Of a stretch of 64,000 bases of DNA, positions 33,245-62,644 are shown piece after piece. Both the position numbers and the translations under genes were made by a program. Each line of letters starts with the position of its first letter. The first letter of the stretch is position 1. The notes beneath the pieces were generated by a model that saw nothing but the letters and a program-made list of their open reading frames with translations, was not told the DNA's origin and ran no database searches. Location: the NCBI GenBank assembly GCA_004295245.1, contig REAR01000058.1, positions 1-64,000 of the forward strand. Reading direction: 5' to 3'. The DNA is from Sphingobacteriales bacterium (GTDB taxonomy: Bacteria > Bacteroidota > Bacteroidia > Chitinophagales > Chitinophagaceae).

Positions 33245-33287
33245 GTATAATTTTTTTAACCGCTGCAAAAATAGTTTAATTGAGCTG

Positions 33288-33496
33288 GGTAACCAGCATC
33301 GCTTTTTCATGGCAGCAGCCGTTGCGTCGCACACTTGTACTGTTGAATACAAGTCCGCAAGTCCGGGGTTGGAAAGTCCGAAAGAATTTTACACTAACTG
33401 CAATCGTCTTTCAGACTTTCGGTCTTGCCAACTTTCGGACTTAGCGCACAAGTGTGCGACGCAACGGCTGCCGGGCTTTATTAAAATGCTGGCAAC
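33288..33496. repeat. Family A inverted repeat, copy A4 with both outer ends (GGTAACCAGC 33288-33297; arms 33321-33338 and 33448-33465; GCTGGCAAC 33488-33496)
   Basis: Direct reading; perfect 18-nt arms; loop contains further inverted segments (gaaagtccgaaag/ctttcggac). Confidence 0.92.
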
Positions 33497-33504
33497 AAAA
33501 TACA

Positions 33505-35694: not shown

Positions 35695-35710
35695 GTTGCG
35701 TCGCACACTT
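35695..35710 (+). repeat. Family A single arm, copy A5
   Basis: agccgttgcgtcgcacacttcaactg, downstream of recG. Confidence 0.85.
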
Positions 35711-39684: not shown

Positions 39685-40803
39685 ATGAAAACGAAGATGC
39701 ATTATAAGAAGCTGAACAGCGCTGCAACTGTAAAAGTGTGCGACGCAACGGCTGTTGCCAGAAGTGTTACTGCCGGGTTCAAAAAAATATTTTTTTCACT
39801 TGGTTTGTTTATCTGTGTATCTACAGCAAATGCGCAGGATACGCATTTCTCTCAATGGTTTAACTCGCCTTTATTAACCAACCCTGCTAACACCGGTTTT
39901 ATACCTGATGATGATTATCGTTTTGGTGCTAACTACCGCAACCAATGGGTGAATATTATGAATGTGCCTTATAAAACAATTAGTGTGTATGGAGATGTGC
40001 AGGCGTTTAGAGAAAAACTAGATAATGGTTGGTTGGGTTTAGGCGGTGTAATTTTAAATGATGTGGCAGGCAGTGGTAATTTAACTTCTACTAAAGTGTA
40101 TGGCTCTGTGGCCTACCATCAAATGGTGGGTTATAGCAGTTTGATTAGTGCTGGTTTTAATATGGGTTTTGTAAGTAAAAGAGTTAACCCAACGCAACTA
40201 AAATTTCCTGATCAGTTTAATAAGGCTACCGGTTTTTTTGATGCGGGTATACCTACTGCTGCGGCATTTAATGCCACCAGCATTGGTTATTTTGATATGC
40301 ATGCCGGTGTTAACTACGCTTACTTTCCTACAGAAAAAATTTATGTAAACGCTGGCTTTAGTGTGCAGCATTTAAACCGGCCTAAAGAAAGTTTTTTTGC
40401 AGCCACCAGTGGTTTTGATAATCGCCTGTCTCCTCGCTATACCGGTTTTATTAGTGCTAGTATTAAGGTAAACGATATGGTATTATTAAACCCGCAAGGC
40501 TATTATAGCAACCAGGCTAATGCCAATGAACTGGTAGCGGGTATGAACGCACATTACAATTTAAGTGGCGATGGCACCACACAGTTAATTGGCGGTTTGT
40601 ATTATCGCTTAAGCGAAGCCATTGTGCCGGTTGTTGGCTTTCAATGGAACGATTTTAAAATGACTTTTAATTACGATGTTACCACTTCTTCGCTAAAAGC
40701 CTATAACAATGGCCGCGGTGCCATAGAATTTTCTTTGGTTAAGCAAGGTTTGTTTAATACCTATAACCGTGGTGCCAGACAGGTTATTTGTCCAAGATTA
40801 TAA
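39685..40803 (+). CDS. PorP/SprF family type IX secretion membrane protein
   Basis: FKKIFFSLGLFICVSTANAQDTHFSQWFNSPLLTNPANTGFIPDDDYRFGANYRNQW; preceded by aaggaggtaatc. Confidence 0.93.
   Translation: MKTKMHYKKLNSAATVKVCDATAVARSVTAGFKKIFFSLGLFICVSTANAQDTHFSQWFNSPLLTNPANTGFIPDDDYRFGANYRNQWVNIMNVPYKTISVYGDVQAFREKLDNGWLGLGGVILNDVAGSGNLTSTKVYGSVAYHQMVGYSSLISAGFNMGFVSKRVNPTQLKFPDQFNKATGFFDAGIPTAAAFNATSIGYFDMHAGVNYAYFPTEKIYVNAGFSVQHLNRPKESFFAATSGFDNRLSPRYTGFISASIKVNDMVLLNPQGYYSNQANANELVAGMNAHYNLSGDGTTQLIGGLYYRLSEAIVPVVGFQWNDFKMTFNYDVTTSSLKAYNNGRGAIEFSLVKQGLFNTYNRGARQVICPRL
39734..39749 (-). repeat. Family A single arm, copy A6, inside the PorP/SprF coding sequence
   Basis: aagtgtgcgacgcaac translated in frame as VCDAT (context VKVCDATAVA). 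Confidence 0.9.
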
Positions 40804-44459: not shown

Positions 44460-44469
44460 TGTTTTTTTG

Positions 44470-44626
44470 AACCCAGCTTTAGTAGCTCCGGTTTAGCTTT
44501 ACTTGCGTCGCACACTTAAGCAGTTGAGGTTATATGTTGCTGATTTAAAAATGTCAAATCAAAAATATCCAACAGTTGAAGTGTGCGACGCAACAACTGC
44601 TGAAGTATGTACTGCTGCTGGTTACC
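44470..44626. repeat. Family A inverted repeat, copy A8 with right outer end (arms 44502-44517 and about 44578-44595; GCTGGTTACC 44617-44626)
   Basis: cttgcgtcgcacactt ... gaagtgtgcgacgcaac ... gctggttacc. Confidence 0.9.
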
Positions 44627-44633
44627 ATATAAA

Positions 44634-62384: not shown

Positions 62385-62443
62385 CAGTTAATGGCGGCAA
62401 AGATATATTTTTTGGTAGCGCTTTGGCCGGGTGTTTATAGTAG

Positions 62444-62636
62444 GGTAACCAGCTGCAGTTTTTCATAGCATCATCGTTGCGTCGCACACTTGTGCAGTAA
62501 GACCGTAAGACTGAAAAGTTGGAAAGAGTTGTGCAATTTAGGTAAGCATATTCCATACTTTCCTAATTACAGACTTGTATTTTATTGCACAAGTGTGCGA
62601 CGCAACGATGCTGATGGATTTGTTGTGGCCGGGTAC
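62444..62636. repeat. Family A inverted repeat, copy A11 (GGTAACCAGC 62444-62453; arms 62476-62494 and 62588-62606)
   Basis: gttgcgtcgcacacttgtg ... cacaagtgtgcgacgcaac, perfect 19-nt arms. Confidence 0.93.
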
Positions 62637-62644
62637 ATAAAAAA

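Follow-up and report, generated by a model that had tools for sequence, protein, structure and literature searches.

A REP-like dispersed repeat of the Chitinophagaceae, putatively mobilised in trans, with a conserved and putatively protein-bound 16-bp core

DNA uptake sequences of the Neisseriaceae and Pasteurellaceae have a conserved short core and a weakly conserved AT-rich flank, and they frequently lie as inverted pairs near gene ends, although they occur in coding DNA too. Among the repetitive extragenic palindromes, CGTC-tagged REPs without a dedicated transposase have been described (PMC3733652). We analysed a palindrome (copy A4) located between the divergent genes mnmE (minus strand) and recG (plus strand), whose identities were confirmed by Pfam, in a 64-kb stretch of DNA (hereafter the window) from a 3.37-Mb draft genome. 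This palindrome is made of two copies of an intergenic DNA repeat of about 80 bp, facing each other across a loop (Table 1). With slightly better than even confidence, we consider this repeat to be a REP-like dispersed element, mobilised in trans and spread throughout the Chitinophagaceae, with a core that is putatively still protein-bound.

Table 1. Coordinates of copy A4, of the other copies discussed in the window and of a young composite family from related genomes
Feature	Position	Strand	Basis or remark
Left unit, complete, T-side toward mnmE	33283..33362	+	extent -38..+42 around the core, from logo and dispersed-match extents
Left box GGTAACCAGC, weakly conserved GTnACCrGC box	33288..33297	+	sequence, logo
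Left arm, 24-nt perfect inverted repeat	33315..33338	+	
Left 16-bp core GTTGCGTCGCACACTT	33321..33336	+	exact match
109-nt loop with nested inverted repeat (33372-33384 with 33432-33440)	33339..33447	.	
Right unit, facing the left unit, T-side toward recG	33424..33503	-	left-unit model applied to the minus strand
Right arm, 24-nt perfect inverted repeat	33448..33471	-	
Right-unit 16-bp core	33450..33465	-	exact match
Right box GCTGGCAAC, degenerate form of GCTGGTTACC	33488..33496	-	
Single unit right after the recG stop codon	35657..35736	+	core 35695-35710; absent from the orthologous gaps of G001 and G002
Single unit within the N-terminal PorP/SprF leader, in frame	39708..39787	-	core 39734-39749; absent from the G001 and G002 orthologues
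Paired copy A8	44464..44632	.	cores 44502-44517 (plus) and 44579-44594 (minus); arms 35 nt, 77% complementary
Paired copy A11	62438..62644	.	cores 62476-62491 (plus) and 62591-62606 (minus); arms 32 nt, 94% complementary
Young composite family	L170-L189 (G228), L122/L124/L128 (G168)		

All the parts of A4 listed in a first-pass annotation of this DNA are present, with exactly 109 nt between the arms, but these arms, given there as 18 nt, are 24 nt long and 100% complementary. The second inverted pair that it placed in the loop (gaaagtccgaaag with ctttcggac) was also found and contributes to the predicted fold. Folding, which the same annotation had proposed, gave strong predicted structures on both strands (RNA z -8.5 and -10.7; DNA z -9.8). 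The outer "terminal repeat" is imperfect, as GCTGGCAAC shares no more than GCTGG with the left end. The loops of this and other paired units contain quasi-tandem words (e.g. AGTCCGAAAGTCCGAAAG, GTCGACAGTTGACAGTC, GAAAAGTGAAAAG, GAGCCATGAGCCACGAG), which are also seen in other genera.

Within the window, the A4 arm has 17 matches with at most 3 mismatches, against 0.29 expected, and an Rfam search of the window returned RNase P only, no model covering the repeat. We added about 290 kb of the genome to the window and aligned 127 half-units on their core; the copies are a sample from 357 kb and not exhaustive, gene calls are simple ORF picks, and several of the statistics given below count related copies as independent. 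The unit is directional and non-coding: the T-tract comes first, then a GTnACCrGC-like box and a variable stretch, and after these the 16-bp core and a weaker tail. Apart from the variable stretch, all these parts recur in other genera. In the logo of these half-units, conserved positions extend from near -38, in the T-tract, to about +40, with no conservation beyond either limit. An unbiased search for dispersed repeats in another genus (g42) gave matches bounded by about -41 on one side of the core and about +42 on the other. Nearly all the information is found in the core (about 2 bits per position), while the box at -31..-23 has at most 0.9 bit per position.

About half of the units are unpaired. 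In gaps with several copies, the units face each other with their T-sides outward in 47 of 51 cases, separated by loops of 6-149 nt (plus one of 298 nt) of variable content. The folding of single units is like that of dinucleotide shuffles (mean z from -0.4 to +0.5), with no consensus structure. A variant of the core, GTTGTGTCACTCACTT, carries linked changes at core positions 4, 8 and 10, two of the three preserving the GYGTCRC dyad; it is found alongside the main core in several genomes and is often paired with it.

The exact 14-mer of the A4 arm is present 487 times in the draft genome (0 for the reversed control). Among 299 sampled genomes of the family, which is common in the environment, 131 contain it (63 of 104 genera), with up to 936 copies. 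All named database matches to the core belong to Chitinophagaceae or to unclassified Bacteroidota/Bacteroidetes MAGs; Segetibacter aerophilus, Pinibacter soli and Limnovirga soli are among the cultured species that carry exact cores. A literature search did not find the core in any of the papers covered, and no Rfam model corresponds to it either. Intergenic DNA makes up 12% of the sequence, yet it holds 110 of the 126 units, and about 40% of the intergenic gaps examined contain units. These are enriched in convergent gaps, often with the T-side right after a stop codon, and some lie between divergent genes, as in the mnmE/recG gap. None of the roughly 130 copies in the sampled loci lies deep inside a conserved gene. 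By its distribution, the unit is therefore not simply a DNA uptake sequence. The PorP/SprF gene of the window (39685-40803) has a leader carrying an in-frame unit (KVCDATAVARSVTAGF), and its orthologues are without it.

We then looked at the constraint on the core. In the 357 kb of the source genome, 68, 38, 11 and 11 copies of the core show 0, 1, 2 and 3 mismatches, respectively; counts are about at background for 4-5 mismatches, without a decay tail, and 83% of the cores have at most one mismatch. Identity to the consensus is 0.95 in the core versus 0.38-0.52 elsewhere in the unit. Outside the core, units of this genome are nearly random with respect to each other (identity 0.537 vs. 0.484 when shuffled), and for only 3% of them is there a neighbour with at least 80% identity, compared with 58% in a young set from another genome (G228). 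As the non-core positions are nearly random while 83% of the cores keep at most one mismatch, recognition probably holds the core in place. Eleven orthologous comparisons, from a set chosen for a recognisable core, gave a mean identity of 0.91 in the core and about 0.65 in the rest of the unit, a result that we take as supporting only. A scan for split cores mostly counted intact ones and is unusable as a statistic. The simplest reading is that the copies of the source genome are old and that their core is kept in place, and there may be continued turnover from many divergent source copies. Tentatively, and with clear doubt, we propose that the 16-bp core could be a family-wide recognition site of a conserved Chitinophagaceae protein, present in hundreds per chromosome at gene boundaries and maintained by selection. 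If true, its scale would be comparable to that of DNA uptake or nucleoid-organising sites.

Presence and absence of units were compared between orthologous gaps. Units of the window are absent from the orthologous gaps of two genomes of the same genus. G228 and G088 are distinguished at one orthologous gap by a single unit, about 85 bp in length (L223 vs. L226), and a second single-unit-sized indel, of 63 bp, was found in genus g42 (L232 vs. L231). These differences support the insertion of single units as a block. The first-pass annotation had taken A4 as the reference full-length element; we abandon this view, since the repeating unit is one half of A4, about half of the units have no partner and the indels have the size of a single unit. 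Several units of genus g42 stay in place with cores broken near their centre by small palindromes. Cores interrupted near the centre (TTGC/GCAC) by small palindromes like GATTCTTTCAGTGAAAGAATC, or by a 72-bp insert, were recorded at L137, L230, L232, L238 and L033 (minus strand, about 9759). Other hairpins thus seem to use the core as a landing site.

A young composite family was detected in genus g87 (G228 and G168). It is about 130 bp long, with terminal repeats CCCrrATTTTGCAGTwG around one unit. The G228 composite was recently amplified and shows 5-bp TTnAA-like target duplications (common flank of 4.79 vs. 3.62 permuted, with 0 of 1000 permutations as high). In this genus, the unit appears to travel inside a MITE-like carrier. 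The burst may be that of another element carrying the unit, the composite having its own terminal repeats; a search for empty copies of this outer element returned unrelated matches only.

Could the whole paired palindrome transpose as one DNA transposon, a MITE with GGTAACCAGC and GCTGGTTACC as terminal inverted repeats? The palindromic layout, the outer boxes inverted in many pairs and the MITE-like behaviour of the G228 composite are in line with this, but we consider it very unlikely for the paired copies. Flanking direct duplications in 20 well-bounded pairs of the source genome do not exceed the permuted level (0.30 vs. 0.61), so that the target-site duplications looked for at the flanks are not supported. 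The two boxes, proposed earlier as element borders, are weakly conserved and not outermost, as the conserved T-tract lies outside them, which largely contradicts that proposal. Furthermore, about half of the copies are single, the presence/absence blocks are as long as a single unit, and the two arms of one pair resemble each other no more than arms taken from different pairs do in their outer, middle and core parts, and less so in the middle part. Inverted duplication was also rejected as the origin of the pairs, within-pair arms not being more alike save for a marginal excess next to the core here (p=0.03). The earlier description of A4 as MITE-like rather than a simple terminator is supported in part: A4 belongs to a dispersed repeat and is no simple terminator, but MITE borders are unsupported. 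Intrinsic terminators or RNA 3'-end stabilisers would account for the strong folding of the paired copies and for T-sides placed right after stop codons. Such a role is highly improbable, as the T-tract lies 5' of the palindrome: on either strand, T comes before and A after it, the reverse of an intrinsic terminator. Besides, the single copies, about half of the total, have no hairpin, and copies are also located in divergent gaps such as mnmE/recG.

Another explanation is that the unit is not mobile at all and that a host DNA-binding protein, with a role in the nucleoid, in replication/repair or in DNA uptake, uses the core as a functional site across the genome, copies arising and persisting by selection. 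A core far more conserved than the rest, without a decay tail, argues for it, and by analogy the inverted pairs near gene ends and the flanking T-tract recall DNA uptake sequences. We nevertheless regard it as unlikely: contrary to uptake sequences, copies are not found deep in conserved genes, the copy number ranges from 0-2 to 487 within one genus, a weak similarity extends over about 80 bp, indels are block-sized and no strand trend is apparent by inspection along the complete G007 chromosome. A RAYT-mobilised REP/BIME family is the least probable of the explanations considered. It would fit the intergenic location, the facing dimers and the enrichment in convergent gaps, and it first looked strong, as one unit lies about 150 bp from the stop codon of the only Y1 (RAYT) transposase gene of the source genome (L061 5601-6323, contig C141 of G000). 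However, hairpins of another type (GCCCACGGTTTAAACCGTGGGC) flank this gene and its orthologues, the core is absent nearby in 12 of the 13 closest Y1 homologues, and the unit itself has no hairpin. Y1/RAYT genes are not associated with copy-rich genomes (17 of 31 vs. 158 of 268 others; p=0.70), and no Y1 match was found in G160 (566 copies on one contig), G043 or G013.

The hairpins GCCCACGGTTTTAACCGTGGG and AAACCGTTAAAACGGTTT flank the RAYT-type Y1 gene, and in other genera many of its homologues have this REP type at their flanks. A tyrosine recombinase was rejected as a candidate as well: a core lies about 150 bp from such a gene in G299 (by coordinates), but among 30 fetched loci a true core was found nearby only at the G259 query itself. 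In G259, the recombinase gene (L066 1500-2942) is split into two reading frames and lies 230 bp from a core, and the genome has two exact cores only. Among Y1/RAYT transposases and tyrosine recombinases, no mobilising enzyme was found and no candidate is left; the source genome is a 96.4% complete draft, from which the gene could be missing.

The explanation that we retain is that of a REP-like element mobilised in trans. The units would have spread as non-autonomous elements, inserting into T-rich sequence near gene ends, and most copies of the source genome would now be old and immobile. Their core would be maintained because it is still recognised by a sequence-specific DNA-binding protein, which could be the mobiliser or one of the host. 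The long hairpins that paired copies can form in RNA or single-stranded DNA would be a by-product. What counts against this explanation is that the unit has no target duplication of its own, no hairpin and no mobilising enzyme found. Either the family is a large one without a known mobiliser, as for the CGTC REPs, or the core is a genome-wide protein site. Intergenic palindromes of these genomes should not be read as terminators or MITEs.

Several known systems can be compared with this unit. It is likened to DNA uptake sequences by its core, its AT-rich flank and its inverted pairs near gene ends, but it is not found inside genes and its copy number is near zero in close relatives. As in Rickettsia palindromic elements, one copy of the window is in frame in a coding sequence, the PorP/SprF leader, whereas nearly all other copies are intergenic and, as far as tested, sequence and structure are unrelated. 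Like MITEs, the unit is non-coding, small and dispersed, and it lies inside a MITE-like composite in G228; unlike them, neither the unit nor the pair in the source genome shows a target duplication or terminal inverted repeats that are sharply conserved. REP/BIME elements differ from the unit, which is about 80 bp long, has no internal stem-loop and bears a fixed T-tract on one side. The identity of the unit lies in its 16-bp core, that of a REP in a hairpin plus a tetranucleotide tag. With RAYT-associated REP/BIMEs, it shares the extragenic location, the high copy number and the facing dimers, but neither a hairpin in each unit nor a linked, flanked RAYT. The REP/BIMEs and CGTC REPs resemble it in being short, extragenic, present in hundreds of copies mostly arranged as facing (head-to-head) dimers, and enriched between co-directional and convergent genes (PMC3733652).
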